A DNA stretch of 20,498 bases, from positions 1-20,498 of IMG/VR virus record IMGVR_UViG_3300009161_000295, one strand, 5' to 3'. A program made the translations under genes and the position numbers. Shown piece after piece: positions 3 to 16,505 of the stretch. The stretch is from a virus. Positions within the stretch are counted from its first letter, which is position 1, and each line of letters begins with the position of its first letter. Below the pieces are notes generated by a model, which was not told the origin of the DNA, did not search any database, and worked only from the letters and a program-made list of their open reading frames with translations.

Positions 3-3000
3 TCATATGGTACATATGGGGTTATTGCTGAAGGCACCGACACATACGAGCAACCAGTTTATGCTGTACTAGATAACCATTCTGTTCAAGCAGTGGTTGG
101 TTTAGTGGTTGGTGACAGCGCAAATCAAATATATCGCGTAGAATATACAAACGCAGGTACTAACTATACTAACGTAGATATCGCGTTCTCAGGAGATGGA
201 TATAACGCATACGCAACCGGCGATGAATTCCGTGATGGTGCAGTATTTGAAACACGATTAATTGATTTAAACGACAGCAAAGGATACGGTGGAACCAACT
301 ATGGCGGCGCACAGAATGCAGCACAAACTGGAGATCTAACAAGTATTACTATTGCCAACTCTGATGTTGCCTTAAGTACAGCATATACCGGTATGAGGGT
401 ACAAATTAACGCTGGGTCAGGAGTAGGTCAATATGCAAATATATTAACATTCAATCAAGGTACTAAGATTGCACAAGTTACTAAAGACAGTTTTACTACG
501 TTAACAGTAACAACAACAACAGCATCTAGCGATTTATTAACTGTAGCTAGTACCAGTTCACTGTATGCAGGAATGCCAATTTACTTAACTGGTACAATGA
601 GTGGAACAGGTGGCGACACAGGACTATCTGCAAATACACTATATTATATTAAAACAGCTGGATTCACAAGTACACAATTTGCTGTTAGTACTACTAGCGC
701 AAGTGGAACATCAGTTGATATTCTTAACAACGTTACTGCATTAACTATTAGTCTGCTAGCAGCTGGTTGGGATCATGCAGTTCCAGGAACAACAATCGAT
801 AATGCATTAGACTTGACTTCTAGTTATATTATTGAACCAAGAATTGAGTACAGTCATCCAGGCTTTACTGCAACATCAAGAACTATTCAGACTGAAGCAT
901 ATAACACTGTACTATTTGGTTCTAATAGATATATTGCAATAGCTGCAACCGGAACCGCAAGTTCATATTCGTTGGATGGAAAAACTTGGACAGCTGGCGG
1001 TGCATTAGGTGCAAGTGCTAGTTGGATTAGTTCGACATTTGGCGGCGGATCAGGCGCACAAGCTACAGCAGTAGTTGGCGGCCTCGGCGGATCAGGTGCT
1101 GTACTAGAAGCAGTAATGGGTGTTCTTAACTATATCGGTGACCCGGGCGCTGATCAAGTAGTTAGTGTTAATATTGTTAATGCTGGATACAATTATTTAA
1201 CGCCACCTACTATTATATTCACCCCTGTATCAGGTGGTAGTGGAGCAGTTGCTACCTGTACAGTATTAAATGGAAAAATTGATACTGTAACAGTTACGGT
1301 GAATGGGTCAGGATATAATGTAACACCAACAATATCCATTGCTACCGATAGAGTAACAAAAATTACAGTATCATCATGGGGTACAGGATACAATTTAGCT
1401 GTTCCGCCAACAATTACATTATCAGGCGGTGGGTCAAGCAATCAAGCAACAGGCACTGCTGTACTAAGCAATACTGGTGTAAGCTCGATTACTATTGGTA
1501 ACACCGGAGGTAGTGGATATACATCTACCCCAACCGTGACTATTGTTGATCCAAGTGCTAAATTTGTAGCAATTGCAACAGGATCAACAAATTCATCGTA
1601 CTTACCAGTAACTGCTGCTGTCGGAGACGCATGGACTGCTGGCGGCACATTGCCAGCAAGTACTTTCGTATCACTTGCGTACGGAACTATTGGCGCAGGA
1701 GTTTATGTAGCAGTTGGTGGCGCTGCCGCAGGAGCAAAGAGTACTAATGGATCTAGTTGGATTTCTACTACATTGCCAACATTGGGGTCGGGAACGTATT
1801 CGGCACTGGCATTTGGTAACGGACGCTTTGTTGCAATATCTACCGGATCGTCATTGGCTACTGCAATTAGTACCAATGGTACTACATGGGTAGCAGGCGG
1901 CAACTTACCTGCAGGATTTACTACAGGTACTAGTGTAGCATACGGTAATGGACGATTTGTAGCAATTGCCAGTGGAGGCACAAAAACTGCATACAGTTTA
2001 AATAATGGAACTACGTGGACCAGCTATAGTGTAGGACTACCAAGTTCACAGCCGTGGACTAAAATTAAATACGGCCAGGGATTATTTGTAGCAATTGCTT
2101 CTGGAGATATTTGTGCTACAAGTCCCGACGGTATACATTGGACAAGTCGTACAATGCCAACCACAGAAGGATGGGCCGGCTTAGCATTTGGAAACGTAGA
2201 TCATAAACCTCTATGGGTAGTAGTTAGCGGAGCGTTTACAATGACTGCTGCTTCATTAAATACAGGCGTACAAGCACTTGGTCGAATGAAGCAACAAGCG
2301 GGAAATATATTAGAAGTTCGTATGGTAGAACCTGGTAGTGGGTATCCTCAAGGAACTGTTACAGCTACTACTGATACAACTAACTTTATCACAGTAGACA
2401 GTACTGAAAATCTAGTTGATAGTCAACCGGTGTTATTTGCAAGTTGTGATACCGGCGGCCTTGTAACAGAAAAATTATATTATGTAATATCATCTGGAAT
2501 GACTACAACGCAGTTTAAAGTAAGTCTAGTTGCTGGCAGCGGCACTCCAGTTGTGTTAACAACTGCTACAGGTCTAACCGGAACATATAAAGCAGGTCCT
2601 ATTATTACGCAATACGATCCTAATAAGATTAACACAGCACCACTAAACCCAAGAACTGGCAACGGTGCATTGGCTAATCCAAGCTACAGTGATAGAGGTA
2701 GCTCATATACTTCAGCAACCGCAGCAATTGGCGGCGATGGCCGGGCTGATTTGTACCAACCTAGTACGTTTGTTGCAGTAAGAAACTTATATCGAACACC
2801 TCAAGCTGGCGCAAACGTAGTATTTGGATCAATTCCTGATACATGGTATAAGCTAGTTGCAGTATCTAATTTGTTAGGTAATGATGGGGAACTAACAGCT
2901 ACATTGCAGATTAGCCCAGGACTAAGTGTACTGAACTCTCCAATCGATGCAGATACTGTAACAACTACTGTCAAGTACAGCCAAGTTCGACTAACAGGAC

Positions 3001-3545
3001 ATGACTTCTTGTACATCGGTACTGGTAATCAAGCAGACACTAACTATCCATACGTTGATCCCACAACATCTAGTATTGCTGCACAAACTACTTTCTCAGG
3101 TGGCGGCCGCGTGTTCTTTACAAGTACCGACCAAGACGGTAACTTTAACGTTGGTAACTTGTTCGGAGTTCAACAGTCGACTGGTACTGCTACACTAAAT
3201 GCTGATGCGTTTAACTTGTCAGGATTACAATCCTTGCAATTAGGTGCTCTAAATATTGGTGTTGGATCAGCAATTATTACACAGTTCTCAACCGATCCGT
3301 ATTTTACGGCTAACAGCGATAACATTGTACCTACACAGAGAGCAATTAAAGCATATATTACAGCCCAGATTGGTGGGGGACAAAGCTCGTTGAACGTAAA
3401 TACCCTTACTGCGGGTGTGGTGTACATTGCAAACGATACAATCCGAACTACTTCGGGAGATCAGTTAAATATAAAATCGAAGATGAATTTTACAGGCGGC
3501 ATTGACGGAGCACCCGTAGCCCTTGGATTCTTTTTAACACACTAA
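3..3545 (+). CDS. Large tail-fibre-like virion structural protein, 5' end outside window
   Basis: The frame is open from base 3, so the gene begins upstream; the GTG at 93 is only an internal codon. At least 1,180 residues are present. A propeller-like repeat with the pattern GNGRFVAIA...STNGTTW...LP occurs once near 912-1040 and several times across 1560-2250. Between them, about 1045-1560, lie repeats of the form GSGY..TPT.TI. A second module (DLLTV...TLYYI...STQF) occurs near 525-740 and again near 2350-2580. The last 150 residues (FTSTDQDGNFNVGNLF, then VPTQRAIKAYI, then NFTGGIDG) match my memory of a C-terminal region common in T4-like marine phage structural proteins. No catalytic motif is evident. 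It heads a plus-strand run of fibre genes, which supports a role in the distal tail or fibres, probably receptor contact. The exact position in the virion is inferred. Confidence 0.8.
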   Translation, partial: SYGTYGVIAEGTDTYEQPVYAVLDNHSVQAVVGLVVGDSANQIYRVEYTNAGTNYTNVDIAFSGDGYNAYATGDEFRDGAVFETRLIDLNDSKGYGGTNYGGAQNAAQTGDLTSITIANSDVALSTAYTGMRVQINAGSGVGQYANILTFNQGTKIAQVTKDSFTTLTVTTTTASSDLLTVASTSSLYAGMPIYLTGTMSGTGGDTGLSANTLYYIKTAGFTSTQFAVSTTSASGTSVDILNNVTALTISLLAAGWDHAVPGTTIDNALDLTSSYIIEPRIEYSHPGFTATSRTIQTEAYNTVLFGSNRYIAIAATGTASSYSLDGKTWTAGGALGASASWISSTFGGGSGAQATAVVGGLGGSGAVLEAVMGVLNYIGDPGADQVVSVNIVNAGYNYLTPPTIIFTPVSGGSGAVATCTVLNGKIDTVTVTVNGSGYNVTPTISIATDRVTKITVSSWGTGYNLAVPPTITLSGGGSSNQATGTAVLSNTGVSSITIGNTGGSGYTSTPTVTIVDPSAKFVAIATGSTNSSYLPVTAAVGDAWTAGGTLPASTFVSLAYGTIGAGVYVAVGGAAAGAKSTNGSSWISTTLPTLGSGTYSALAFGNGRFVAISTGSSLATAISTNGTTWVAGGNLPAGFTTGTSVAYGNGRFVAIASGGTKTAYSLNNGTTWTSYSVGLPSSQPWTKIKYGQGLFVAIASGDICATSPDGIHWTSRTMPTTEGWAGLAFGNVDHKPLWVVVSGAFTMTAASLNTGVQALGRMKQQAGNILEVRMVEPGSGYPQGTVTATTDTTNFITVDSTENLVDSQPVLFASCDTGGLVTEKLYYVISSGMTTTQFKVSLVAGSGTPVVLTTATGLTGTYKAGPIITQYDPNKINTAPLNPRTGNGALANPSYSDRGSSYTSATAAIGGDGRADLYQPSTFVAVRNLYRTPQAGANVVFGSIPDTWYKLVAVSNLLGNDGELTATLQISPGLSVLNSPIDADTVTTTVKYSQVRLTGHDFLYIGTGNQADTNYPYVDPTTSSIAAQTTFSGGGRVFFTSTDQDGNFNVGNLFGVQQSTGTATLNADAFNLSGLQSLQLGALNIGVGSAIITQFSTDPYFTANSDNIVPTQRAIKAYITAQIGGGQSSLNVNTLTAGVVYIANDTIRTTSGDQLNIKSKMNFTGGIDGAPVALGFFLTH

Positions 3546-3559
3546 TTTGGAGAAGAAAA

Positions 3560-3880
3560 ATGGCAACAGGAAGATTAAACGCAATTGTAATACCCGCAAC
3601 AACTGATACTGCGGTGTACACAGTACCTTCGGGATATTACACAGTATGCAACGTAAACATTGTTAACAGAAATGCAGCGGCAGTATCGATTAGAGTAGCT
3701 ATGGCATCATCTATAACTCCGGGAATTGAAGAATGGATTGAGTATGGTACAACTGTTATTCCAAACGGTGTGTTTGAAAGAACTGGACTGGTACTGTCAC
3801 AAAATCAAGTTATAGTCGTATATTCCGATACTGCAAACCTTAGTTGTGTAGTGTACGGCATTGAAACTTCTACTACTTAA
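3560..3880 (+). CDS. Small virion-type protein, single copy of a repeated beta-rich module
   Basis: This 106-residue protein has no signal peptide or membrane segment. It is almost entirely alternating hydrophobic residues, as in a beta-sandwich. It shares the pattern VN.VNRNAAAVSIRVA...EYGTTV.PNGVFERTGLVL...VYGIE with each half of the 220-residue protein at 4558-5220, so both are built from the same module. I recognise the module as frequent among small proteins next to fibre genes in marine T4-like phages, but I know no experimentally assigned function. A good ribosome binding site (GGAGAAG) lies 5 bases before the ATG, 14 bases after the preceding stop. A minor virion or fibre-associated protein is the best inference. 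Confidence 0.7.
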   Translation: MATGRLNAIVIPATTDTAVYTVPSGYYTVCNVNIVNRNAAAVSIRVAMASSITPGIEEWIEYGTTVIPNGVFERTGLVLSQNQVIVVYSDTANLSCVVYGIETSTT

Positions 3881-4557: not shown

Positions 4558-5220
4558 ATGGCAACAGGAATTCAATCAAAAATAAGTTTAACCGCAAGCT
4601 CAGGAGCAAGTACCATACTGGCTGCTGGACCAGCAGCCACAAATGCACAAGTATTAACAGTGTCAATCTGTAATACAAATGCTACGTCAGTATTAATTCG
4701 ACTTGCAGTAACAGCAACTGCCAACGGCACCAGTCCAACATCAACTGATTATTTACTGTACGACTATTATTTGGCTGGATACGGTGTAATAGAATTTGGA
4801 GGTATTGTACTTAATAACGGGCAAACTATTGTAGCACGTAGCAATACTTCTAATGTGTCAGCAGTAACATACGGCATTGACGACGTAGCAAACAGTTCTA
4901 GTGGAATTCAAGGCAAGTATGATTTAAGTGCATCTACTTGGACACAAATTACTTCGGGACCCAGCGCCGGCAGGATTAGAACAGTTAGTGTATGTTTTGC
5001 CAACAGAAGCACGGCACCGTGTACATTGAGATTAGCAGCTTCTGCTACCCCAACATCACCTACAGGTACTGATTATTTAGAATACGGAGTTACATTGTCA
5101 GCTGGCTCTTACTTTGTGCGATCGGGTATTGTGTTAGATAACGGAAACGGAATCGGAGCATGGGCATCTACGTCCAGCATCAGCTGTGTTGCGTATGGAG
5201 TTGATGATGGCTCGACATAA
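4558..5220 (+). CDS. Virion-type protein with two copies of the small beta-rich module
   Basis: The 220 residues split into two similar halves. Residues 1-110 contain VSICNTNATSVLIRLAV and end in VTYGIDD; residues 115-220 contain VSVCFANRSTAPCTLRLA and end in VAYGVDD. Each half matches the 106-residue protein at 3560-3880, so the module exists three times in 1.7 kb, apparently by tandem duplication, fusion and divergence. There is no signal peptide or enzymatic motif. The start follows AAGGA. Position among the fibre genes suggests a fibre-associated or capsid-decoration protein; function is not known to me. Confidence 0.68.
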   Translation: MATGIQSKISLTASSGASTILAAGPAATNAQVLTVSICNTNATSVLIRLAVTATANGTSPTSTDYLLYDYYLAGYGVIEFGGIVLNNGQTIVARSNTSNVSAVTYGIDDVANSSSGIQGKYDLSASTWTQITSGPSAGRIRTVSVCFANRSTAPCTLRLAASATPTSPTGTDYLEYGVTLSAGSYFVRSGIVLDNGNGIGAWASTSSISCVAYGVDDGST

Positions 5221-5286: not shown

Positions 5287-6801
5287 ATGGGAAGATTTGT
5301 TGCAACTAACGCTACTACTACTGCATACACACGAGCAGAAGTGTTTTCAACACCGGGTACAACTTCGTGGACTGTACCAGCCGGAGTTACCAAGGCAAAA
5401 GTTTTTGTTATTGGAGCAGGATCGTGTTATAGAACAACTCAATTTTGTTTCCAAGGTATTGGATGTTGCTCCGGAGTAGCAAGTCCAGTATGTAATTATT
5501 GTATGACATTCATGGGTCACTTGACCGGTGCAGGTGGCGGGTACGCTGAAAAAACCCTAACAGATGTTTACCCGAGTCAAACAATGACAATTAATGTGGG
5601 ATCCACAACTGGATTGTCTGCAAGTAGTGCAGCTATTGGATCAAACACTGTTACTGCTAGCAATGCTACAGAAACCGCAGTAAACTGGGCATGTACTAAT
5701 AACAGTACAGCAAGGTCAGCTACCTCAGATAATCCATTTACATTGGGATTCACATTCCCTGTGTGCGGTTACATTAACTGTATTTGCGGATATTGGAATG
5801 CAGGCGGCACTGCATCTGGGGGAGACATTAATCAAACTGGCGGTAAAGGTACTATTGCTCCATATTTTTGCTATAACTCATGCATGGATGTTGTTAATCT
5901 AACCTCCGCCGGCAGCACATGTTTAAGAGGCTGTACAACTTGGGCGTGCCAAAATTCCGGATATGATTATAGCTTTGGTGGAACACGTTATAACTGTAAC
6001 TGCTTCAACGGTCGACTGTGTGCATGTAACAACTGTAACTGTAACTGTGGTGGCTCGTTCTATGTTGATGCAAACTGTATTTGTTTGATTACATATCATA
6101 ATGTGTTTGGAGGGCAGTGTTACTACAACATGCCATGGTCTAGCTGTGTGTGTCAACAGGCATGTAACAACGGAATGACATTGTGCGTGTCCAATGCTGG
6201 TGGTGGTGGCGGTAGTGGCAACAAATATGTGTTTGCTGGTCAGGCACAACGGGCCTCAACAGGTAGCTACCCCGGAGATCCGTTGGCTGCACTATCTGAA
6301 CCATATGCATCAAACACCGAAGCTGTGCCAACCGGCATTGGTGCAGAATCTGGAAGAAGTGACGGCGCAGGCCTATGCGGTATGAGCGAGATTCAATCAA
6401 CTCAACTTTCTGGCAGTGTTACTGCCGGAGGTTCGGGGACATGTTACGGCACCAGCACCATTATGTGTTGTAAGAATTTTGGCCAAGACCACTTTATCTT
6501 CTACTTTGGCTCGGGCATAAGTCAATACCCGTGGGTGGGATTTATGGACATTGGTAATACTAGTACTACACCGGCATCATCTGTACGATGCTTTAATATT
6601 GGATTTAACAGAGATGCAACATTATATCGTCCGGCCAATGCTGCGGTTATACCACTGTCTCAATACAAGTCCAGTACCGGCGCTTCGGTTGCCGATGTTA
6701 AATATGGCTATGGCGCAACAGTTCAAGCTGCGGGCTACGGTGGTGGCGGCAACAGATTGAATACCGCTGGCGGAAGTGGTGTAGTTGTAGTGGTCTATTA
6801 A
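5287..6801 (+). CDS. Cysteine-rich, glycine-rich tail-fibre/adhesin-like protein
   Basis: This 504-residue protein opens with a fibre-type Gly-rich domain: SWTVPAGVTKAKVFVIGAG near residues 27-46, then GAGGGYAEKTL and TMTINVGS to about residue 106. It closes with GYGGGGNRL...GGSGVVVVVY, the usual end of such domains. Between them it carries about 34 cysteines, concentrated in residues 160-300, many as C-x-C or C-x-x-C (for example NCNCFNGRLCACNNCNCNC). The first and last blocks look like two halves of one beta domain, with the cysteine-rich segment inserted as a long loop. Such a density is extraordinary for a protein folded in a reducing cytoplasm; metal binding or disulphides formed outside the cell are both possible. 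The ATG follows AAAGGAA and the gene starts a new transcript-like spacing. A receptor-contacting fibre tip is inferred from context. Confidence 0.7.
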   Translation: MGRFVATNATTTAYTRAEVFSTPGTTSWTVPAGVTKAKVFVIGAGSCYRTTQFCFQGIGCCSGVASPVCNYCMTFMGHLTGAGGGYAEKTLTDVYPSQTMTINVGSTTGLSASSAAIGSNTVTASNATETAVNWACTNNSTARSATSDNPFTLGFTFPVCGYINCICGYWNAGGTASGGDINQTGGKGTIAPYFCYNSCMDVVNLTSAGSTCLRGCTTWACQNSGYDYSFGGTRYNCNCFNGRLCACNNCNCNCGGSFYVDANCICLITYHNVFGGQCYYNMPWSSCVCQQACNNGMTLCVSNAGGGGGSGNKYVFAGQAQRASTGSYPGDPLAALSEPYASNTEAVPTGIGAESGRSDGAGLCGMSEIQSTQLSGSVTAGGSGTCYGTSTIMCCKNFGQDHFIFYFGSGISQYPWVGFMDIGNTSTTPASSVRCFNIGFNRDATLYRPANAAVIPLSQYKSSTGASVADVKYGYGATVQAAGYGGGGNRLNTAGGSGVVVVVY

Positions 6802-6810
6802 GGAATAAAA

Positions 6811-7554
6811 ATGGCAACATATATAAGAACAATAACAGATCAATATGATTTTAATATTGTAATTGATGTAACTGATAACGAAGGGTTTGTTAATACTACC
6901 GGATTTAATTGGGTAAACATTGGCAATCTTACTGCAACAAATGGTGACTTCTTTTACAACAATAAAATAATCTCACCTCACAGTGAAGATTATAAACTAA
7001 TTGAAGAAATTTTGTTTGCAAAAATTGAAGTAGAGAATGTTGCAATACGAGAAGCAGATAATCTACGACAATTGCAAGAACAAAAAGAACTAGAGGCTGC
7101 TGCGGCTGAGGCCGAGGCTGAGGCTGAAGCTGTGGCCGCTAGCGAACGTGCAGAATCGTTGGCTGAAAAACCCAATTTGATTCCTGAGCCCGAAAGAAAT
7201 TTGCCCCCTAACTTTGAAGAAATGCTAGAAGCCCTTCCAGTACCTAAATTAATTAATTACCTTGAAGAATTTAAAGACCTTGAAATCACAATAGATGTAT
7301 TAAAAGAGTGGGTTGCTAAAAATAAAGAAATGCAAAAATTTGCAGCAGCATTACAAACTGCAACAATGGAGGGGAAGAAAATTATTTTTGATACACCGTA
7401 TGTAAGAAATCAAGGAACTGAATACGAAGAAACATTACCTTGGATGTACACACCTCATACTGACATTGAGCATTATCGATCACACATGCAACTTCAGCAA
7501 GCACAATTGGAGTTATTTTTAACCAAAATTAAATCGGATCTAGGGTTAATATAA
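6811..7554 (+). CDS. Coiled-coil protein of unknown function ending the fibre operon
   Basis: This 247-residue protein has a short beta-rich head (about residues 1-58, beginning MATYIRTITDQYDFNIV). A charged helical stretch follows (residues 60-120), including an Ala/Glu repeat (AAAAEAEAEAEAVAA). The C-terminal helical half contains LPVPKLINYLEEF and LQQAQLELFLTKIKSDLGL. I do not recognise a family. The stop of the upstream fibre gene is part of its leader (TAAGGAATAAAAATG), so translation is probably coupled. The position directly after the fibre genes suggests a fibre assembly chaperone or connector, as small coiled-coil proteins often follow phage fibre genes, but this is inference only. 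Confidence 0.6.
   Translation: MATYIRTITDQYDFNIVIDVTDNEGFVNTTGFNWVNIGNLTATNGDFFYNNKIISPHSEDYKLIEEILFAKIEVENVAIREADNLRQLQEQKELEAAAAEAEAEAEAVAASERAESLAEKPNLIPEPERNLPPNFEEMLEALPVPKLINYLEEFKDLEITIDVLKEWVAKNKEMQKFAAALQTATMEGKKIIFDTPYVRNQGTEYEETLPWMYTPHTDIEHYRSHMQLQQAQLELFLTKIKSDLGLI
7096..7140 (+). repeat. Hexanucleotide-like Ala-Glu coding repeat
   Basis: Within the coiled-coil gene, units of GCTGAG/GCCGAG/GCTGAA repeat about five times, encoding alternating Ala-Glu. Units are not identical and keep the frame, so protein length variation is more likely than on-off switching. Confidence 0.6.
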
Positions 7555-7625: not shown

Positions 7626-8546
7626 ATGAAGAAAGTGTTTAGTATTAGTGGTGGCGCAGGCCGTGTATTGTGTTCAATTCCAGCACTGGAAAAGTATTAC
7701 AAAAAAAACGGAAATAACTTTTATATCTATTCTGAAAGTGGCATGGAGTTTTTTGCAGGTAACAAGAAACTACAAGATCTCACATACACCCCAGATACAA
7801 AAGATGTATTTGAACACATTATTAGACCCAATAATCTAGTAACACCGGAACCTTACAGAGAGCACGGATACTACAATCAAAAAAGAAGTCTTGCAGAATC
7901 ATTTGATTTTCTAATCAACGAAACTGAAGATCATTCTGATTTAGGTAAGCCACAGATTTACCTTTCCAAGTTAGAAGAAATGCATGCCATTGATGCTATT
8001 GAAAATGCAAAAAAACATCACGGCAAAGCAAAAACTATTGTGATACAACCATTTGGTAAATCTGCACAGATTGTGCAATCTGAAGTAATTGACCCAATGA
8101 GCAGATCGCTTAATAAAGCAACGTATCTAGCAATTTTAGAATCACTAAAAAAAGATTATAATATCATCTACTTTGGCGAACAACTAGAAGTTGACGACTA
8201 TACTTTTAAAATACAAACTAACAGTAGAATGTGGGCAGCAATCATAGAAGCTGCTGATTATTTCATTGGATGCGACAGTGTTGGACAGCATATGGCCTAT
8301 GCATTTGGTACCCCGGGCACTGTGATTTTAGGCAGTACGTATGCAAAAAATATTTCATACCCTGACTATTTTCAAATTATACAAAAAACACCCATGGATA
8401 TTAAATATTTTCCTATCAGAATAAATGAACATCTTGACGGCGATTTAGCAAATAGATACAACGATACGTGTGTGGACTTCACCACTAAAGAAACCGCAGA
8501 TTTGATTGAAAAAATTAGAACAGATATTAAAAAGAAAACAAAATGA
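7626..8546 (+). CDS. GT9-like (heptosyltransferase-fold) glycosyltransferase
   Basis: This 306-residue protein looks like a GT-B fold enzyme of the GT9/ADP-heptose type. The N-terminal half opens with SISGGAGRVLCSIPALEKYY (residues 6-25), matching the family's Gly-rich first loop. The linker leads to TIVIQPFGKS (137-146), the usual first strand of the nucleotide-sugar-binding half. FIGCDSVGQHMAYAFGTPG (213-231) matches the D-S-x-x-x-H-x-A-x-A-x-G-x-P signature that holds the donor. The family transfers a sugar from an NDP-sugar, classically onto lipopolysaccharide core; donor and acceptor here are unknown. It is cytoplasmic, with no signal or membrane segment. It is the first gene of the accessory operon, its ribosome binding site lies in a hairpin, and its stop overlaps the next start as ATGA. 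Fibre glycosylation or host-surface alteration are both compatible. Confidence 0.72.
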   Translation: MKKVFSISGGAGRVLCSIPALEKYYKKNGNNFYIYSESGMEFFAGNKKLQDLTYTPDTKDVFEHIIRPNNLVTPEPYREHGYYNQKRSLAESFDFLINETEDHSDLGKPQIYLSKLEEMHAIDAIENAKKHHGKAKTIVIQPFGKSAQIVQSEVIDPMSRSLNKATYLAILESLKKDYNIIYFGEQLEVDDYTFKIQTNSRMWAAIIEAADYFIGCDSVGQHMAYAFGTPGTVILGSTYAKNISYPDYFQIIQKTPMDIKYFPIRINEHLDGDLANRYNDTCVDFTTKETADLIEKIRTDIKKKTK

Positions 8547-9202
8547 TACCGCTGACTGTGGTAGACAACTTTTACGATAACCCATTTGCAATTCGAGAAT
8601 TTGCATTAGCACAGGAATATTCTAGATCAGATTCTGACGCTTGGCCGGGATTGCGCACAAAGATGTTATTAGATATTGATAAAAAATTTTATAATAACTT
8701 TATAGTTAAGGTATTAAATTTATTTTTTACTATCCCGGGTGACGATGTAGGATGCAATTTTGATGTATATTTTCAAAGCGTGTCTAACAAATATAGAACT
8801 GGGTGGGTTCATAAAGATTTCGGAGTATCGTTTACCGGAATTATCTATTTAAATCCAGATGCTCCACTGGCCAGCGGCACTAGTATGTATAGTGAAAAAT
8901 ATATTAATACTCGGCATACCGATCATACAGAAAAGTTTAACTTTTACAATAACATCCTAACTGATATAGAAATTTTTGATAAAGCAACAGATCATAATAA
9001 TTCAAAATTTGTAAAAACTGCTGACATTTTAAATGTTTTTAACAGACTTACTATAATACCGGGAGATACATGGCATAACGGTGACGGATATTATGGTACA
9101 GATCTCAGTGATTCTCGATTGACGCAGGTATTTTTTGTTGAACTTAATGATAACGGAACTGCTAGAACTCCAGTTACTAGACTAAAAGAAATTAAAGTAT
9201 GA
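8543..9202 (+). CDS. 2OG/Fe(II)-oxygenase-like protein (DUF6445-like), copy 1
   Basis: The 219 residues begin IPLTVVDNFYDNPFAIREFA and include WPGLRT (34-39), a signature I associate with the DUF6445 group of double-stranded beta-helix proteins. Candidate metal ligands are H90 and D92 in GWVHKD, and H178 in PGDTWHNG. R192 in DSRLTQVFF is a candidate 2-oxoglutarate anchor. This is the H-x-D...H...R order of Fe(II)/2OG oxygenases. Substrate is unknown; small-molecule or protein hydroxylation is the class expectation. The start overlaps the glycosyltransferase stop by four bases (ATGA), implying coupled translation. The gene is followed by a clear paralogue. Catalytic activity is inferred from motif spacing, not proven. 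Confidence 0.68.
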   Translation: MIPLTVVDNFYDNPFAIREFALAQEYSRSDSDAWPGLRTKMLLDIDKKFYNNFIVKVLNLFFTIPGDDVGCNFDVYFQSVSNKYRTGWVHKDFGVSFTGIIYLNPDAPLASGTSMYSEKYINTRHTDHTEKFNFYNNILTDIEIFDKATDHNNSKFVKTADILNVFNRLTIIPGDTWHNGDGYYGTDLSDSRLTQVFFVELNDNGTARTPVTRLKEIKV

Positions 9203-9900
9203 TACCAATAACTGTGGTAGATAATTTTTATCACGATCCCTACACAATACGAGAGTATGCAATGTCACTTGATTATAGTCGAGAAGACAACTCACCATGG
9301 CCTGGATTTAGATCAGACTATTTAGAAGTAATTAATATAGATCTACACACGTTACTAAAGGCTAAACTAACAAAATTATTTTTTGAAGACGTTACAGATG
9401 TTGAATTTGAGTTGCAAGTTAATTTCCATTTAACTCCTGCATCTTTTGGAACCGGGTGGGTTCATACTGATATAGGTACTTCATTTGCTGGAGTAATATA
9501 TTTGACGCCTAATGCCCCATTAGAGTGCGGAACTACTATTTTTAATAATCTTCCTCGTGAACTTAAACTTAGTATAGATGCTAGATATAAAGAAACTAAT
9601 GGATATGAAAATCTTATAAAATCTGTGAAACAACATGCATTTAAAATAGCCGAGTTAAATGTTGGAAATTCCAAGCCCTACGATATTATTCGAGAAGACC
9701 ACAATAATAGATTCACTGAAAGTTGTAAAATATCTAATATGTTTAATAGATTAGTAATCTACCCTTCTAACTTATATCATACTGAATCTAAATTTTTTGG
9801 TACTTCACTAAATGACTCAAGGCTAACTCAAGTATTTTTTGCAACAATTAAAACAACAAAATTATTTCCTCTTGATAGAATGTGGAGTGCTGCACAATAA
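9199..9900 (+). CDS. 2OG/Fe(II)-oxygenase-like protein (DUF6445-like), copy 2
   Basis: This 233-residue tandem paralogue of the preceding gene has the same opening (IPITVVDNFYHDPYTIREYA), WPGFRS, H89 and D91 in GWVHTD, GVIYLTPNAPLECGT, H194 in YPSNLYHTES and R208 in DSRLTQVFF. The ligand set is therefore kept in both copies. The middle (about residues 115-175) differs strongly and carries an insertion of 10-15 residues relative to copy 1, so the substrate pocket is likely different. The ATGA overlap with copy 1 indicates one transcript and coupled translation. Two consecutive reactions on related substrates, or a heterodimer, are possible. Confidence 0.68.
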   Translation: MIPITVVDNFYHDPYTIREYAMSLDYSREDNSPWPGFRSDYLEVINIDLHTLLKAKLTKLFFEDVTDVEFELQVNFHLTPASFGTGWVHTDIGTSFAGVIYLTPNAPLECGTTIFNNLPRELKLSIDARYKETNGYENLIKSVKQHAFKIAELNVGNSKPYDIIREDHNNRFTESCKISNMFNRLVIYPSNLYHTESKFFGTSLNDSRLTQVFFATIKTTKLFPLDRMWSAAQ

Positions 9901-10764
9901 ATGTCACGGTTGTTTACATTTGGATGCTCGTTTACTGAATATGCGTGGCCAACTTGGGCTGATCTACTAAGTTTACATTTTGATTATTCTGAAAACTGGG
10001 GGTACCGAGGAATAGGTAATAGAGGAATTGCTGAACGAATTGCAGAGTGTAGCGTAAAGAATACTTTTACCAAAGATGATGTTATAATAGTACAATGGTC
10101 AACCCATTTACGTAATGATTGGTATCATACACACAATTTGCCAGATGGACGACCTGCTGGCTGGAAAACTTCCGGAAGTATCTTTACAAATAATAATGCA
10201 TTGCTGTATAATAAACAATGGATAAATTTATTTTTTCACGAACCTGCTTATATCATGCACACTCTTAATAATATTAAATTAGTGCAGGGATTATTAGAAT
10301 CTACAGGTGCAATTTGGTATATGACCAGTATAACTGATATTAGACACTTAGCAATTGATTTAACAAACGAAAGCTATACACCATCCGCAAACAACCTATT
10401 TGATTTACATCCAGAATTTATATGTTATAATAGTATATGGGAAGATTACAACTCACACTGGCTAACTCCATTTTATGATTTTGCCAACAACTACTCAGAT
10501 GATAATTGGTACTTTAAAGATGACAAAGATAATTTATGGAAAGAGACACATTTGTCTACACGACAGTATAAAAAATGGATTTTAAAAGAATTAGGTAATT
10601 GTTTGTCAATACCACATAACTTGATACAAGAATTAGATAAATTAGATACAACAGTTGAAACTATAAAAGATTTGTCCAACACTATGTTCGAGTTCACTGA
10701 TAAATTAAGGTTGTCAGAGTGTTTCAAAGAGATTAATTGGCCCAGTAAAATAAAAGGATTATGA
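9901..10764 (+). CDS. SGNH/GDSL-hydrolase-like protein
   Basis: This 287-residue protein opens with LFTFGCSFTE (residues 4-13), where S10 sits in the position of the SGNH nucleophile. GIGNRGIAERI (37-47) supplies a G-x-x-N block. DDVIIVQWSTHLRNDW (59-74) corresponds to the strand and loop normally carrying the oxyanion Asn. ETHLSTRQYKKW (215-226) places H217 where the catalytic His is expected, although the usual Asp three residues before it is Lys. The family hydrolyses esters, often acetyl groups on sugars; here the degenerate last block makes activity uncertain. Its start directly follows the preceding TAA. The context suggests removal or transfer of an acyl group on the same glycan handled by the glycosyltransferase and carbamoyltransferase. 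Confidence 0.6.
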   Translation: MSRLFTFGCSFTEYAWPTWADLLSLHFDYSENWGYRGIGNRGIAERIAECSVKNTFTKDDVIIVQWSTHLRNDWYHTHNLPDGRPAGWKTSGSIFTNNNALLYNKQWINLFFHEPAYIMHTLNNIKLVQGLLESTGAIWYMTSITDIRHLAIDLTNESYTPSANNLFDLHPEFICYNSIWEDYNSHWLTPFYDFANNYSDDNWYFKDDKDNLWKETHLSTRQYKKWILKELGNCLSIPHNLIQELDKLDTTVETIKDLSNTMFEFTDKLRLSECFKEINWPSKIKGL

Positions 10765-12564
10765 ATGACTCAAAAAAAAGATTTATGGATTGCAGGTATT
10801 GCTCGTGGACATAATGCTAGTGTATGTTTATTAAAAAACGGTAAGGTTGTTTTTAGTATTGAAGAAGAAAGGCTAAGCCGTCAAAAGTACGACGGCGGCC
10901 CGTATGCTGCAATGATCAAGATTAAAGAATACACTGACCAATTAGATTTTCTAGTCATTGCACACACACAACCATTAAGTGAAACTGCGGGGAAAGTTGA
11001 CTTTACCGGAGACGATGTATATACTGGACTAGCACGTAAATTAGGGTTAATTAGTAGGAAAGAGAATCTACGCCAACACCCACAAGTTGTTGATTTAAGC
11101 CACATTCATCATAAACTTCATGCTGCCTGCGCATTTTATAGATCAGGATTTGATCGTGCTGCTGCCTTAATTGTTGACGGCGCCGGCACATTTATTCCAT
11201 TGTCAATTCGAGAAGAACAACAAATTGGATGGGAAACAGAAAGTATTTACGACTGTGCATATCCTGTAACATTTACAACCAAATATAAACATATAGGATT
11301 ACGTGGTCCTGATCCTGGCACTATAATGTATGATTTTCCTAGCACTATGTATAGTGAGCCCGAAGGGTTAACACACGAGGCAGTTATTACAGACCGCGCA
11401 GGTATTGTTAAAGTCTATGAAGCAGTAACAGAATACTGCGGCTGGCCAAGTATTGAAGCTGGCAAAACTATGGGGCTATTTCCATATGGCACTGCTAATA
11501 CTAACATTCCTGACCTATTTGATAACACTTCGATTACTCCGTTGTCTAATAGAAACTTAATAGTTCCTACATATCCAAACGGTGCTAAAGTTAATTACGG
11601 ACTATTTACTGAACTAAACAATCATGATAACGAAGATATTACGCTATTACAAAACCGAAGAGACTTAGCATACAGTGTACAAACTCAAACACAGGCCCAA
11701 GTTGTTAGATTAATTCGAAAGGCTGCAGAAATTACTGGGCACAAGAAAGTTGTTATCAGTGGCGGATATGGTTTAAATTGCGTTGCTAATTATCATTACC
11801 TACAAGAACTTAAAGACGAAGGTATTGAGATTTATGTAGAACCCATTAGTAATGATGCTGGTACTGCAATCGGCGCAGCTCTATTGATCTACAAAGACCT
11901 CGAACCTGACAGTAACATTGACTACTCTAAGGACGGATTGTACTTAGGGTTTGAATACAATTATACTGTTGACGATCTCAACACAGAAGCACAAAAATTT
12001 GGGGCAGAGGTGTTAGATGCAACGGATGAAGATGTAGTAGATTTACTAACAAATAAAAATATTGTTTGCATATATCAGGGACGTAGTGAAAACGGCCCCC
12101 GAGCGTTGGGCAATCGTAGTATACTGTTTAACCCAACATACCAAGACGGTAAAGACTTTGTAAACGAAGTCAAACATCGAGAATATTTCCGACCATTTGC
12201 GGGATCTATCTTACAAGACTATGTGCATGATTGGTTTGATTTACGTGGTATGGAAGATAGTCCGCATATGATGTATGCTGTAAATTGTCAACCAGGTATT
12301 GAAGAAAAAATTCCTGCAATTATTCACGTTGACGGGACTTGTCGTATACAAACAGTCACCGAAGAACAAAATACGCATTATTATAATTTAATTAAAGCCT
12401 TTTATAATCGTACAGGTGTGCCAATTTTGTTTAACACTAGTTTTAACTTAGGTGGCGATCCTCTAGTAGAAACCTTAGAAGATGCTATAGAAACGTTAAG
12501 TAAAAGTGAGATCGAATACTTATATCTACCCGAACTAGGTAAATTAGTTAAAGTTAAGAACTAG
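10765..12564 (+). CDS. Carbamoyltransferase, NodU/CmcH (TobZ-type) family
   Basis: This 599-residue protein has full family length and both expected domains. The N-terminal Kae1-like domain has GHNASVCLL (15-23), HIHHKLHAACAFYRSGF (113-129) with the metal-binding histidines, DGAG (138-141), SGGYGLNCVANY (332-343) and NDAGTAIGAA (363-372). The C-terminal YrdC-like domain has GRSENGPRALGNRSILFNP (439-457), KHREYFRPFA (470-479) and ILFNTSFNLGGDPLV (554-568). These enzymes make carbamoyl-adenylate from carbamoyl phosphate and ATP and pass the carbamoyl group to a hydroxyl, on sugars of antibiotics and Nod factors. A related phage-associated enzyme acts on 5-hydroxymethylcytosine in DNA. The acceptor here is unknown. 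The upstream TGA directly abuts its ATG, with AAAGGA as ribosome binding site. It is the last plus-strand accessory gene and its 3' end overlaps the convergent methyltransferase by 11 bases. Confidence 0.93.
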   Translation: MTQKKDLWIAGIARGHNASVCLLKNGKVVFSIEEERLSRQKYDGGPYAAMIKIKEYTDQLDFLVIAHTQPLSETAGKVDFTGDDVYTGLARKLGLISRKENLRQHPQVVDLSHIHHKLHAACAFYRSGFDRAAALIVDGAGTFIPLSIREEQQIGWETESIYDCAYPVTFTTKYKHIGLRGPDPGTIMYDFPSTMYSEPEGLTHEAVITDRAGIVKVYEAVTEYCGWPSIEAGKTMGLFPYGTANTNIPDLFDNTSITPLSNRNLIVPTYPNGAKVNYGLFTELNNHDNEDITLLQNRRDLAYSVQTQTQAQVVRLIRKAAEITGHKKVVISGGYGLNCVANYHYLQELKDEGIEIYVEPISNDAGTAIGAALLIYKDLEPDSNIDYSKDGLYLGFEYNYTVDDLNTEAQKFGAEVLDATDEDVVDLLTNKNIVCIYQGRSENGPRALGNRSILFNPTYQDGKDFVNEVKHREYFRPFAGSILQDYVHDWFDLRGMEDSPHMMYAVNCQPGIEEKIPAIIHVDGTCRIQTVTEEQNTHYYNLIKAFYNRTGVPILFNTSFNLGGDPLVETLEDAIETLSKSEIEYLYLPELGKLVKVKN

Positions 12565-13393
12565 TTTTTTTAATAACCATTATGTAGTAATCTGCAACAT
12601 AATGGTTATTTCCTGGCCTGCGATGTGCATAGTATCGTTCTTCGTCCCACATCATTACATCTGCTAATATTCTAGAATGAGGTAACATTCTATACTTGTC
12701 AATTGCGCAGGCTGCTCTAACATTGGCAGTAATGTTTCTCTTCGATACAATCTTAAGACCGTGTTCTTCAAATGCGGTAGTTACTTCTTCCATTCGAATT
12801 TCATCAAAAGTGTCTGCATATAAAAACACACCATCTTGTTTTAGAGTTTTACTAACGCCATTTAGAAAATCATCATATAAAAAGTAATAATTTGCAGATT
12901 CTACATTTGTTATAATATCAAATTTTTCAGCCGTAAATGGCAAGTCCATTGCGCTACCTTGCACAAACTCTATACCACTATGAGTGTTTTTACAAAACTC
13001 AATTTGATTAGGATTTAAATCTAACCCCACTAATGTGTTAGTTTTGTAGTAGTCACGGAACACACTTAATCCTCCTCCCCTGCCGCATCCTATATCTAAT
13101 ATAGATCCTAAATCATTACTAAGAGATATGCCTGATTGTTTAAGTAATTCAATGTACAAGTAAGCCTGATGTTTCCAAATATGATGTAGTGAATTGAGTT
13201 CTGGATAACTGTCTAAAATTACAGGGTATCCATTTTTATCCAACGACATATATCCGTCATTCATAAAAATAAACCAATCTAAACCTATGGTTTGATTATG
13301 AATTTCGTTATATTTTTGAATTATTTGTTGGTGAAATAATTCTTTATCCATGTTTATTTGCGCCAATGCTATATCAGAATGCATATTATACAA
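12554..13393 (-). CDS. Class I SAM-dependent methyltransferase
   Basis: This 279-residue protein has a Rossmann-type methyltransferase core. Motif I is SILDIGCGRGGGLSVF (97-112). D125 in LVGLDLNPNQIEF ends strand 2 and would bind the SAM ribose. GSAMDLPF (146-153) marks the adenine-side loop, and KFDIITNVES (157-166) is motif IV. The layout matches the UbiE/Methyltransf_11 small-molecule C- or O-methyltransferases rather than DNA methyltransferases, since no DPPY or PC motif is seen. An extension of about 70 residues precedes the core and may cover the acceptor. It is the last gene of the minus-strand operon; its start overlaps the upstream oxygenase stop by 8 bases. ATGs at codons 4 and 15 are alternative starts and none has a clear ribosome binding site. 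Confidence 0.82.
   Translation of the reverse strand: MYNMHSDIALAQINMDKELFHQQIIQKYNEIHNQTIGLDWFIFMNDGYMSLDKNGYPVILDSYPELNSLHHIWKHQAYLYIELLKQSGISLSNDLGSILDIGCGRGGGLSVFRDYYKTNTLVGLDLNPNQIEFCKNTHSGIEFVQGSAMDLPFTAEKFDIITNVESANYYFLYDDFLNGVSKTLKQDGVFLYADTFDEIRMEEVTTAFEEHGLKIVSKRNITANVRAACAIDKYRMLPHSRILADVMMWDEERYYAHRRPGNNHYVADYYIMVIKKTSS
12572..12610. repeat. 14-bp perfect inverted repeat at the convergent gene junction
   Basis: AATAACCATTATGT (12572-12585) pairs perfectly with ACATAATGGTTATT (12597-12610) around an 11-base loop. It lies inside the last codons of the methyltransferase and just past the carbamoyltransferase stop. Neither strand has a U-run after the stem (a T-run precedes it on plus), so it is not a textbook terminator. 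It could stabilise or mark mRNA 3' ends. Confidence 0.65.
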
Positions 13394-14003
13394 AGTGAAA
13401 ATTTAACACGCATCGAGGTCCGATTGTGGGTTGTGTACTACTATGATAATGTCGACCGTTAAAAAATACTAATCTACCTTTTTTTGGACTAACTGACCGT
13501 GCAACAGTTAGTGTAGTAGAGTCAACTTCTGATATTGATTGAGTGTCGAGTAACGGAACGTTAGTTTCCCTATAGATAAGAGTATTTCCATCAGAATCAT
13601 TTACATAGTACAATCCAACTAGGTGAGGAAATGATTTATCGATATGCGGCTTATCGATTTTATTTTCTTTGTCAGCAGGAACAGGCATGGATAAAAATCC
13701 GCGGAGCAAATCAACTTGACTAATGTCAATATTTGCCTTTTCAGCTGCGCAATATAGAATTGGTGTTAAAAAATGATAAGGTGTTCCTCTTCCGGTATTA
13801 GGGTCAAACATCATACTACCAAAACCTGGCCTACGACTAGGTTTATTATCAGGATGTAATTTATCTAACGCCCGTAAATAAGTATCACTAAGGGTTATGT
13901 CTGATTGAAAGCACCAAGGGTGATCATTTACCAGTAGAAAATTTTCTATCTCGTCCTGATATTTAACGGGAATACAATTATCAATGATCAGTATGTCGTG
14001 CAT
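13386..14003 (-). CDS. 2OG/Fe(II)-oxygenase-like protein
   Basis: The 205 residues fit a compact 2OG-Fe(II) dioxygenase. H120 and D122 in KPHIDKS, H187 in NGRHYHSST and R197 in GPRCVLNF give the metal triad and co-substrate arginine. The stretch HLVGLYYVND and GRLVFFNG are the flanking jelly-roll strands typical of prolyl-4-hydroxylase-like members. The class couples 2-oxoglutarate decarboxylation to hydroxylation; the substrate is unknown. It begins MHDILIIDNCIP, a start style shared with other phage members. It overlaps the upstream oxygenase gene by 23 bases and the downstream methyltransferase by 8, so these three genes are probably translated together. Confidence 0.75.
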   Translation of the reverse strand: MHDILIIDNCIPVKYQDEIENFLLVNDHPWCFQSDITLSDTYLRALDKLHPDNKPSRRPGFGSMMFDPNTGRGTPYHFLTPILYCAAEKANIDISQVDLLRGFLSMPVPADKENKIDKPHIDKSFPHLVGLYYVNDSDGNTLIYRETNVPLLDTQSISEVDSTTLTVARSVSPKKGRLVFFNGRHYHSSTQPTIGPRCVLNFHFV

Positions 14004-14571
14004 TTATAAACCTAAAAGTTGAGGACCACCGCGGCAAAGCGTGAGGCGATGGTGGCCGCACAATGTGTGGAATATTTCCAGTACCGTATATTATTCTTCC
14101 CGGAATAAATTGTGAAACATATATTTGTTTTTCCCCGGTGTCGTCAAAAAACACAGTCTCACCGCCCCATGTTACATTCCAAGTTGGGTTTATATAATAA
14201 ACCATAAACTCAGTATCCGCATTAGGACCATCAGTATGCACTTTAAATTTTGAAAGCGCATTTACATAATTTAAATTTGGTTGATGAACTTGACGAGATT
14301 TTGCCCTTGCTTTTAAATCATCAGGTAAAAACTCTACCAACCCCATCCAGAAATTTAATAAATTTTGATCTTCTTTTAGATAACACGCCCATTGCAATGA
14401 ATCATAATTTTCAGGTAATGGTGACGAGTTTAAAGTATACTTATACGGACACATGATTGCAGTAGTGTAGTATATTGCTCGCTGTGTATAGGGTACTGCA
14501 CCGTCTATAATCCATAGTTTACCATTGTCAAACTCTAATTTTTCTACCTTCATTTCAACATCCTTAGTCAT
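13981..14571 (-). CDS. 2OG/Fe(II)-oxygenase-like protein
   Basis: The 196 residues include the order H112-x-D114 (KVHTDGPN), GGETVFFDD (136-144), PGRIIYGTGNIPHIVRPP with H169, and R181 in PRWSSTFRF. This is the complete Fe(II) triad plus 2OG-binding arginine of the prolyl-hydroxylase-like dioxygenases. It is not closely similar to the neighbouring oxygenase or to the tandem pair on the plus strand. The start ATG overlaps the upstream stop as ATGA. An internal ATG at codon 7 has AAGGA seven bases before it and is a credible alternative start. Substrate is unknown; a step in the same modification route is inferred from the gene order. Confidence 0.75.
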   Translation of the reverse strand: MTKDVEMKVEKLEFDNGKLWIIDGAVPYTQRAIYYTTAIMCPYKYTLNSSPLPENYDSLQWACYLKEDQNLLNFWMGLVEFLPDDLKARAKSRQVHQPNLNYVNALSKFKVHTDGPNADTEFMVYYINPTWNVTWGGETVFFDDTGEKQIYVSQFIPGRIIYGTGNIPHIVRPPSPHALPRWSSTFRFINARHTDH

Positions 14572-15290
14572 AGTAAATTATTCTTTATTTCTTTTAGTAT
14601 ACGACTACGTATTTTAGACGCTTTAAAAATATCATACAATTTAAATAAATTCTTTTCTCGTCTGTAGTTTTTTAATCTAACACAGCTCATTGATAGCTTA
14701 TAAAGTTCTTCTGAAAGATAAAACTTTTTAAGAATAATAGGTTCGTCTGTTAAAAAATTAACATATATCAATGGATCATCTTGTACCGTTTTAAATTGCG
14801 TGTGCCCTTCCCACATTTGAAAAGCAAATTCAAAAGGCCTAAACCAAGATGAAATATCAAAGGTACCCGGTACATAAAATCCGCAATCAGATACTAGCGA
14901 GTTATGCAAATATGCAGGAGTTGTATGAATATAGGTTGATTCTTCGGCAAACATAATCCAGTTTGCATTATATCGAATAGTGATAGCATTCTGCATTGAT
15001 TCTTGCTTTGGAACAACAGTATTGCGATCGTAATGCTGATCGGGATTTAAATTATTAAGTATTCGATTACCTGCAAACGTAACATTTGCATCAGTGGGAC
15101 TAGTAAACATATAAGTATTTTTAATGCTGTTAACAAATGCTGGACAATTAAAAAAATTGTCAATTTTATTTTGAGGATTTTTAGCAGATTTTAAATTGTC
15201 TAATACTTTAACCGGTTCTTGATAGGATAAAAACTGTTTAGAATATTCAGTAGGCTCAGTAAATGGCGCCCAATATACAGTTATAGCCAT
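14568..15290 (-). CDS. Phage protein of unknown function, paralogue of next gene upstream
   Basis: This 240-residue protein has no signal peptide, membrane segment or enzymatic motif that I recognise. It shares an order of features with the protein encoded at 15292-16002. These are a CPA motif near residue 49, an F/W-rich strand with SP, an NWIMFAEESTYIH segment, a VPGTFDIS.W segment, and a late ILKKFY strand (EPIILKKFYLSE). The two are probably ancient tandem duplicates. The C-terminus is very basic and helical (RREKNLFKLYDIFKASKIRSR). It starts two bases after the upstream gene's stop and overlaps the next gene's start as ATGA. Proteins of this look occur in accessory regions of marine T4-like phages, but I can give no function. 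Confidence 0.55.
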   Translation of the reverse strand: MAITVYWAPFTEPTEYSKQFLSYQEPVKVLDNLKSAKNPQNKIDNFFNCPAFVNSIKNTYMFTSPTDANVTFAGNRILNNLNPDQHYDRNTVVPKQESMQNAITIRYNANWIMFAEESTYIHTTPAYLHNSLVSDCGFYVPGTFDISSWFRPFEFAFQMWEGHTQFKTVQDDPLIYVNFLTDEPIILKKFYLSEELYKLSMSCVRLKNYRREKNLFKLYDIFKASKIRSRILKEIKNNLL

Positions 15291-15291
15291 A

Positions 15292-16002
15292 TTATTTTTT
15301 ATCCGGTTGTTTAAAATATCTTCCTATAAACATTTGAGGCATTTTTTGATTTATCTGCTGCCATTCATCAAATGATACTTGTTTAACTTCAAAATTAACT
15401 TTTCTCTCAGTGATAGGAAACATTGATATTAATGGAGTGCCATGTTTTAAGTGTACGACATACGGTTCTGATTTTATAGGGAACGATAAGTGAATATTTG
15501 TAGAATGCTGGAACGAATAGTCAATAATTCCCGGTGGAATTACAATATCTTGATCTCTAAAAAATGAAGTACTATAATGCGATTCTATAAATGTAAATTT
15601 AATTTCTTGATCTGACACAAAGTACCAGGGCGAGTTTAATTTTAATGCTATTCTATTGTTATATGCTTCGCCGTATTGAGTTTTACGATGTTCAACTACT
15701 TGAACTTGCCAATCAGGCCTTGAATAATGTGTCCATGAACCATCTGGGAATATCTTAATGTCAATATCTGCCCACATCTTTAATTGAATCGGGAGATGCA
15801 GGAAATCTTTAATAGCAGGACATACTGCCGCGGTTGGATTTTTTACAATGATAGTTGACCTTTCATCACGCTCGAGGAAGAAAGTTTTTAATTTTTTAAG
15901 CCAATCAGGCTTCTCAGTTGACTGATATTCTGGTTTTGCACTGTTAAAATAACTTGGATTAAACGTATAAGCAGTTACATTAATCGATTTTTTAGAAAAC
16001 AT
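15292..16002 (-). CDS. Phage protein of unknown function, paralogue of next gene downstream
   Basis: I chose the ATG at 16002, giving 236 residues from MFSKKSINVTAYTF, because AGGGGA lies four bases upstream. The frame extends to a TTG at 16050 overlapping the Nudix stop, which would add 16 residues. The protein has CPAIKDFLHLPIQLKMW, then FPDGSWTHYSRPDW, then NSPWYFVSDQEIKFTFIESH, then a VIPPGIIDYSF segment. It parallels the downstream neighbour's CPA, SP, NWIMF and VPGTFDIS blocks. The recurring aromatic strands suggest a beta-rich fold. No catalytic residues can be argued and the function is unknown. Confidence 0.55.
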   Translation of the reverse strand: MFSKKSINVTAYTFNPSYFNSAKPEYQSTEKPDWLKKLKTFFLERDERSTIIVKNPTAAVCPAIKDFLHLPIQLKMWADIDIKIFPDGSWTHYSRPDWQVQVVEHRKTQYGEAYNNRIALKLNSPWYFVSDQEIKFTFIESHYSTSFFRDQDIVIPPGIIDYSFQHSTNIHLSFPIKSEPYVVHLKHGTPLISMFPITERKVNFEVKQVSFDEWQQINQKMPQMFIGRYFKQPDKK

Positions 16003-16025
16003 AAATTCCCCTGATTCTTCACGGG

Positions 16026-16032
16026 TATTTAG
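16026..16032 (-). promoter_or_regulatory. CTAAATA late-promoter-like motif
   Basis: On the minus strand CTAAATA lies 23 bases before the ATG at 16002, in the only sizeable gap (about 44 bases) of the minus-strand accessory operon. The same heptamer occurs before gp14. It resembles the TAAATA core of T4-type late promoters. Tentative. Confidence 0.3.
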
Positions 16033-16046
16033 TTGGTAAAATTTTG

Positions 16047-16505
16047 TCAAAGGAGATTTATGATATCAAATACTGTTTGTAATTTGATGTGGATTGTTTT
16101 ATTTCTTAAACTGAGATCTAATCCTTTGTGTACCGGCTTTGGCAAATTATCTAAATCAAACCATCCCCATGCAATATGTTCATCACTTAGTACCGGTATA
16201 AATTCAGATTCTACAACACAAAAGTATGTATGAAAGTTAAACATACTATCGTTGCTGACAAATCGTTCAAGTGGAATAGTCTTTTTAATATCGGGCATTG
16301 CACCCAATTCTTCTTCAATTTCTCTTTGTAAGCCCTGCCATGCTGACTCATTAGAGTGATTAGTACCGCCCACTAATCCCCAACGACCTGCATGTTTGCC
16401 CTCAGCTTTTTGCAATAATAAAAATCGTTTTGTTGATCGAGCACAAATTAATGCCCCTGAGCAATCGATTATGTCTGAGTTAGAAGTTATAATTCTAACC
16501 TCCAA
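16047..16505 (-). CDS. Nudix hydrolase
   Basis: This 152-residue protein contains a complete Nudix box from G47 to A69: GTNHSNESAWQGLQREIEEE followed by LGA. This fits GX5EX7REUXEEXGU with R61, E62, E65 and E66 present. The family hydrolyses nucleoside diphosphates linked to another moiety X, such as NDP-sugars, dinucleoside polyphosphates or damaged nucleotides. Next to a glycosyltransferase an NDP-sugar substrate is attractive but unproven. There is no ATG near the start. The frame opens with TTG at 16505, inside the last codons of gp15, and a GGAGG overlaps codons 1-3. An ATT start five bases after that GGAGG is possible. Its stop overlaps a TTG of the next frame. Confidence 0.85.
   Translation of the reverse strand: MEVRIITSNSDIIDCSGALICARSTKRFLLLQKAEGKHAGRWGLVGGTNHSNESAWQGLQREIEEELGAMPDIKKTIPLERFVSNDSMFNFHTYFCVVESEFIPVLSDEHIAWGWFDLDNLPKPVHKGLDLSLRNKTIHIKLQTVFDIINLL

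Follow-up and report, generated by a model that had tools for sequence, protein, structure and literature searches.

The tail fiber protein gp24 of cyanophage Pam3 is part of the virion, resembles S16 gp38 and has a chaperone gene next door; its distal loops form a domain with 39% Gly, and the tips of these loops have been proposed to bind the receptor (PMC9608196). In gp38 adhesins (S16, and Syn9 gp38/gp39 as annotated) the gene for a glycine-rich tip adhesin lies beside a large fiber gene. HxH iron-binding fibers, among them T4 gp37 and that of Alteromonas phage R22Y, are associated with the Ferrojan/Trojan horse hypothesis (PMC11705849). The proteins with which marine T4-like cyanophages touch their hosts are poorly settled, and we found no description of Cys-rich cyanophage tips in the open-licence literature.

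The DNA analyzed here, called the window throughout, is a whole 20.5-kb virus record (20,498 nucleotides; Table 1). One of its ORFs encodes a protein with exactly the 34 Cys that a sequence-only reading of this DNA had counted, corresponding to 6.7% of its residues (34/504), compared with 0–2% in the 19 other large ORFs. Most of them (23/34) are located between residues 130 and 310, with six more in a loop at residues 47–72 and five at residues 364–435. The C-x-C runs that had been reported for residues 160–300 were found as well, and the protein contains seven CxC motifs versus 2.2 expected from composition shuffles (p 0.004, and 0.009 within the Cys region), although such permutation figures overstate the certainty because related sequences are not independent. 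The ORF at position 3894, which had been credited with a three-cysteine stretch, does encode three Cys (residues 114, 122 and 131), but these are widely spaced. Composition bias or a misread frame has a practically negligible chance of explaining the pattern: nothing was found in favor of such an artefact, the ORF is intact and uses both Cys codons (24 TGT and 10 TGC), and its conservation at the protein level across independent contigs, together with Cys-rich counterparts in cultured phages, already refutes it.

Table 1. Positions of the Cys-rich protein, its parts and the neighboring genes in the window
Feature	Position	Strand	Residues, evidence and remarks
Large tail fiber protein, 5′ end incomplete	3..3545	+	Part is 46–54% identical to cultured-cyanophage tail fibers
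106-aa cassette-conserved protein	3560..3880	+	40–47% to P-SSM2, S-CAM1, S-CAM3
220-aa relative of the 106-aa protein (apparent duplication)	4558..5220	+	
Window protein (candidate Cys-rich fiber-tip protein)	5287..6801	+	504 aa, 34 Cys; ORF and composition, family of 18
TNF-like β-sandwich part 1 (SWTVPAGVTKAKVFVIGAG), no Cys	5320..5424	+	aa 12–46; AlphaFold2 pLDDT ~80–90 over aa 11–40; Gly_rich_2 match
Loop L1, first Cys cluster (C47, 54, 60, 61, 69, 72) and conserved GHL(T/V)GAGG	5425..5529	+	aa 47–81; alignment; low pLDDT
TNF-like β-sandwich part 2, no Cys	5530..5667	+	aa 82–127; AlphaFold2
Variable loops replacing the glycine-rich domain, 28 Cys	5668..6639	+	aa 128–451; pLDDT ~30
CxC run	5995..6048	+	aa 237–254, CNCFNGRLCACNNCNCNC; NCNCFNGRLCACNNCNCNC at aa 236–254
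Conserved module CxC-x3-YHxxFG-...-CxC-x3-C-x6-C, invariant H271	6076..6186	+	aa 264–300; conservation in family alignment
Last sandwich strands and GGGGNR...GGSGVVVVVY end, no Cys	6640..6798	+	aa 452–504; AlphaFold2, alignment
247-aa chaperone-position protein, no Cys	6811..7554	+	β-like N-terminus, charged/coiled middle; named by position only
Glycosyltransferase-9 (GT9)-like protein	7626..8546	+	Named by inspection, no Pfam match
Carbamoyltransferase	10765..12564	+	62.6% identical to that of cyanophage S-SSM7

According to the AlphaFold2 model computed on its family, the window protein is a TNF-like β-sandwich that is interrupted by loops holding all 34 Cys. The predicted sandwich comprises residues 12–46, 82–127, 452–475 and 495–504 (core pLDDT ~80–90), and the Cys-rich insert has no confident fold (pLDDT ~30). 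None of the 34 Cys falls inside the sandwich (P ~1e-4 for random placement), which is also Cys-free in 17 of the 18 family members; the loops contain 14.5% Gly, 9.5% Cys and 44 aromatic residues. Comparison of the sandwich model with solved structures gave Z values of 8.1 for the Bxb1 tail tip, 7.8 for the ALK glycine-rich domain and 6.7 for Pam3 gp24 (PDB 7YPX). These values are middling when taken alone, but the three matches share one architecture, and Gly_rich_2 was the sole recurrent Pfam match. The N-terminal part of the protein matched Gly_rich_2 (PF21722) with an E-value of 1.6e-4 (22.2 bits, cut-off 24.3); the Pfam search with the whole protein returned no match to this family, and PDB profile searches with alignment A4 of the window family and with alignment A7 returned no match. 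The earlier description of Cys inserted into a Gly-rich domain therefore holds in outline, as the N-terminal part resembles Gly_rich_2 and a Cys-free sandwich is split by Cys loops.

When the window protein is compared with Pam3 gp24 (PDB 7YPX, 7YFW), a TNF-like sandwich with projecting distal loops is common to both; gp24 is followed by a chaperone gene in Pam3, and the window protein by a conserved gene that may encode a chaperone. However, the Pam3 domain has 39% Gly, and the loops of the window protein are far poorer in Gly and far longer. Without a glycine lattice, the window protein is a variant rather than a classical member of the Pam3 gp24-type tips. The gp38 adhesins share the position of the gene beside a large fiber gene but differ in composition, with 28–34% Gly and 0–1.1% Cys in the Syn9 domains through which this comparison was made (in place of S16 gp38). 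The ALK/LTK glycine-rich domain is also a sandwich with an inserted glycine-rich region; it belongs to animal receptors, and the likeness concerns the fold alone.

Three scans of IMG/VR viral contigs identified 17 further distinct relatives of the window protein, all with 24–36 Cys and with 33–52% identity in tblastn comparisons. Twelve Cys are nearly or fully invariant in the alignment (C54, C60, C61, C136, C160, C216, C264, C266, C287, C289, C293 and C300), as are H78 and H271, which are fully invariant, and the conservation in the loops is 0.62 for Cys versus 0.36 for other residues. The search of genome contigs for relatives of the window protein yielded none, and tblastn searches of cultured phages with the window protein, L009 and L021 remained empty even at E 1–10. 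A DNA pattern designed for Gly_rich_2 domains in general matched only members of the same family. The family splits into class A, which includes the window protein, and class B. A Cys module with the motif GYDYxFGG (5956–6003 in the window) is central in class A and near the C-terminus in class B (e.g. L009), as if it had been shifted between loops. The class B virus G007 encodes a plant-type ferredoxin (L053:9860-10150) that is 76–82% identical to its best cyanophage matches, from which class B phages probably infect picocyanobacteria; psbA, the photosystem gene used as a host marker, was absent from the 12 records examined.

The window protein belongs to a conserved cassette in which the large fiber gene is followed by the Cys-rich tip gene, a chaperone-position gene of ~240 codons, the GT9-like gene and the carbamoyltransferase gene. 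The same order was observed in the cultured cyanophages S-SSM7, S-CAM1, S-CAM3, P-SSM2 and Sf-FS3 and in IMG/VR loci. The GT9-like protein is 35–53% identical to its counterparts in cultured and single-cell phages. In all window-family loci examined, the chaperone-position gene (221–252 aa) is conserved directly downstream of the tip gene; its product gave no family, chaperone-family or PDB match.

The cultured counterparts were located through the neighboring carbamoyltransferase gene, which led to T4-like cyanophages. At the tip position, S-CAM1, P-SSM2, S-SSM7, S-CAM3 and Sf-FS3 each encode two or three 'hypothetical proteins', which we refer to as sister proteins (S-SSM7 114–116, S-CAM1 224–226, P-SSM2 304 and 306). 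Those that were counted contain 7.6–11.6% Cys, and the matches in S-CAM3 and Sf-FS3 contain 10–11%. The rule that Cys is rare in phage fibers, from which the sequence-only reading had started, is thus valid in general but not in this marine tail-fiber cassette, where 5–12% Cys is usual. Gly_rich_2 was matched by eight of the 16 cultured sister proteins (E up to 0.1, best E 4e-10, at least one above the cut-off), a Gly_rich_2 search of genomes gave several matches above the cut-off, and the cultured sister proteins also match each other. With the window protein they share the cassette position, the Gly_rich_2 domain and the high Cys content, but they are shorter (260–357 aa), richer in Cys and mostly present in three tandem copies, and direct similarity is weak: the profiles of the two families align over the Gly_rich_2 start with an hhalign P of 0.003 and a probability of 11%. 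Among the matches listed in a scan of IMG/VR with the cultured sister family, 79 loci were kept, which contained 215 distinct complete sister proteins with 8.3–12.7% Cys; exactly three tandem copies were present in 70 of the 74 of these listed loci that had complete sister genes (L103–L181), and the chaperone-position gene in 76 of the 79. In contrast to these three tandem genes, a single, longer tip gene is present in the window phage and in each of the 17 relatives. It is conceivable that the three sister copies form a heterotrimer.

The sister proteins could be modeled with higher confidence (pLDDT 83, pTM 0.79, from an alignment of 91 sister proteins). The model superimposes on Pam3 gp24 with a Z value of 15.5 and 3.3 Å over 194 of 262 residues, compared with Z values of ~4 for unrelated entries (Foldseek E 5e-6), so that by predicted fold the Cys-rich cyanophage sister proteins are Pam3-type fiber tips. 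No residue type in the sister family is conserved more strongly than Cys (in the loops, 0.84 versus 0.42 for other residues), and a CHC motif (C192-H193-C194) is near-invariant, with H193 conserved in 91%. Gly_rich_2 domains outside the cassette, in Bellamy, ACG-2014g, S-SM1, S-RSM4, Syn9 and P-SSM4, have 28–42% Gly and 0–1.2% Cys, as does a separate Gly_rich_2 domain within P-SSM2 itself. The enrichment in Cys is therefore a property of the tip of this cassette and not of the composition of these phages. At the same cassette position, the marine virus AG-345-P14 encodes a 282-aa protein (L068:5117-5962) with 9.2% Cys and only 11% Gly, whose N-terminus (MARFKGDSSGR) resembles that of class B (MARFLGTAAGR); judged from its sequence, Cys-richness may be kept there even though the tip domain differs.

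We consider it reasonably probable, though far from assured, that the window protein is a receptor-binding fiber tip in which a Cys framework holds variable loops, probably through disulfides formed outside the cell. The assignment as a tip draws on the predicted sandwich, the place in the cassette and the weak similarity of the profiles, and the general claim of a fiber or adhesin protein is supported by fold, synteny and relatives. The protein would sit at the distal end of the tail fiber, presumably as a trimer, with the sandwich as a base and the loops projecting from one end, as in Pam3 gp24. In ordinary members of this group the loops are a lattice of poly-glycine strands; in the window protein and the sister family a conserved framework of Cys takes the place of much of the Gly, and the residues between these Cys vary freely. 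The conservation data agree with this arrangement: in the loops Cys is conserved to a much higher degree than the remaining residues, as expected where a structural framework encloses positions that are free to vary. The same fold could also belong to a tail-fiber assembly factor or another non-virion protein, in line with a weak phrog_863 match and with the annotation of related T4-type gp38 genes as 'tail fiber assembly' (Syn9 gp38, gp39). We give little credence to such a role, because the chaperone position is occupied by the next gene, the closest confident fold (Pam3 gp24) is found in the virion, and loops that vary around a constant framework are in keeping with a binding tip.

The state of the Cys bears on the three roles that had been proposed for them, namely a metal-loaded tip, an adhesin hardened by disulfides after lysis, and a receptor decoy, for the last of which nothing was found in support. 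Exposed free thiols, which might act in attachment, for example by disulfide exchange with host surface proteins, would be compatible with the odd number of Cys in 104 of the 215 sister proteins among the matches listed. For these 104 chains complete intramolecular pairing is excluded, and at least one Cys in each must be free, intermolecular or bound to something. However, free thiols are expected to oxidize in oxic seawater, and Cys as the most conserved residue type of the sister family is unlike an adaptive contact surface, which makes this explanation quite improbable and leaves disulfides and metal sites as the two serious states. In the latter case the same adhesin would bind Zn, Cu, Fe or an Fe-S cluster through Cys and a few conserved His, and the metal would serve to stabilize the protein or to engage a receptor for metal uptake. 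This reading is kept alive by the chains with an odd Cys count, about half of the sister proteins listed, and by the conserved His (H78 and H271 in the window family, H193 within the CHC motif of the sister family), and is also consistent with a 3.3-fold enrichment of CxC over the window family and with the near-invariance of C264-x-C266...H271...C287-x-C289-x3-C293-x6-C300. Nevertheless, we rate it as rather unlikely: no metal-site family was matched above the cut-off (one FLYWCH match had an E-value of 0.017), the 44 loop aromatic residues are ill-suited to a metallothionein, the sister-family fold is that of an ordinary adhesin, and HxH is absent from all 18 members of the window family (it occurs in 34 of the 91 sister proteins). 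The window family may share with the HxH iron fibers the setting of a marine phage fiber with a possible metal-binding tip, but it differs in fold and ligands; of the proposed metal-loaded tip, the T4/Ferrojan-type site is thus missing, and binding by Cys and His still fits. The bolder proposal of a widespread marine tip class with metal-thiolate sites in its Cys framework, with virions that carry trace metal and a cyanophage form that is a heterotrimer of three paralogues, appears improbable to us.

We favor disulfides, since the analysis revealed no metal-specific feature and no HxH motif occurs in the window family. The protein would fold in the reducing cytoplasm, probably aided by the product of the next gene, and after lysis, in oxic seawater, most Cys would form disulfides within or between neighboring loops and perhaps across subunits. 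The outcome would be a tip that is both rigid and variable and that attaches to the host surface. Among the three proposed roles, the disulfide-hardened adhesin is the best fit to Cys that are conserved and confined to loops, with the qualification that pairing cannot be fully intramolecular in the odd-Cys sister proteins. Covariation among the Cys was dominated by two clades and carried no information on pairing. If disulfides are formed, maturation of these phage tips would have to wait until the host has lysed; if the Cys carry metal, trace-metal chemistry would be affected. In either state, a Cys framework with variable residues between would be an adhesin design that differs from the glycine lattice. 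Such tips seem abundant in the ocean (the IMG/VR scan with the cultured sister family yielded at least 244 related stretches), and the unannotated genes of cultured S-SSM7, P-SSM2 and S-CAM1 are probable tips that can now be tested.

Metallothioneins are small proteins with ~20–30% Cys and few or no aromatic residues. Metallothionein was rejected as an identity for the window protein, which has 504 residues, 6.7% Cys (9.5% in the loops) and 44 loop aromatics.

Downstream of the tip, the stretch 7626–16050 of the window encodes the GT9-like protein, two DUF6445 proteins, the carbamoyltransferase, a methyltransferase and two 2OG-Fe(II) oxygenase-like proteins. Of these, the genes for the GT9-like protein and the carbamoyltransferase accompany the tip gene across different marine myoviruses, and their products perhaps modify the fiber or the host surface. 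Two proteins of 240 and 252 aa (14568–16050), which have no Pfam match, are kept beside the tip in nearly all window-family IMG/VR loci. The protein encoded at 16487–17965 has a sheath-stabilizer-like N-terminal domain (aa 1–187), followed by ~300 aa that gave no significant PHROG match. For the neck protein of the window, the nearest counterparts are found in jumbo phages (e.g. Phosso, Atu_ph07 and PA5oct). With this jumbo-type neck protein in the window and a cyanophage-like ferredoxin in G007, the cassette seems, as far as these gene sequences indicate, to have moved between virus groups.
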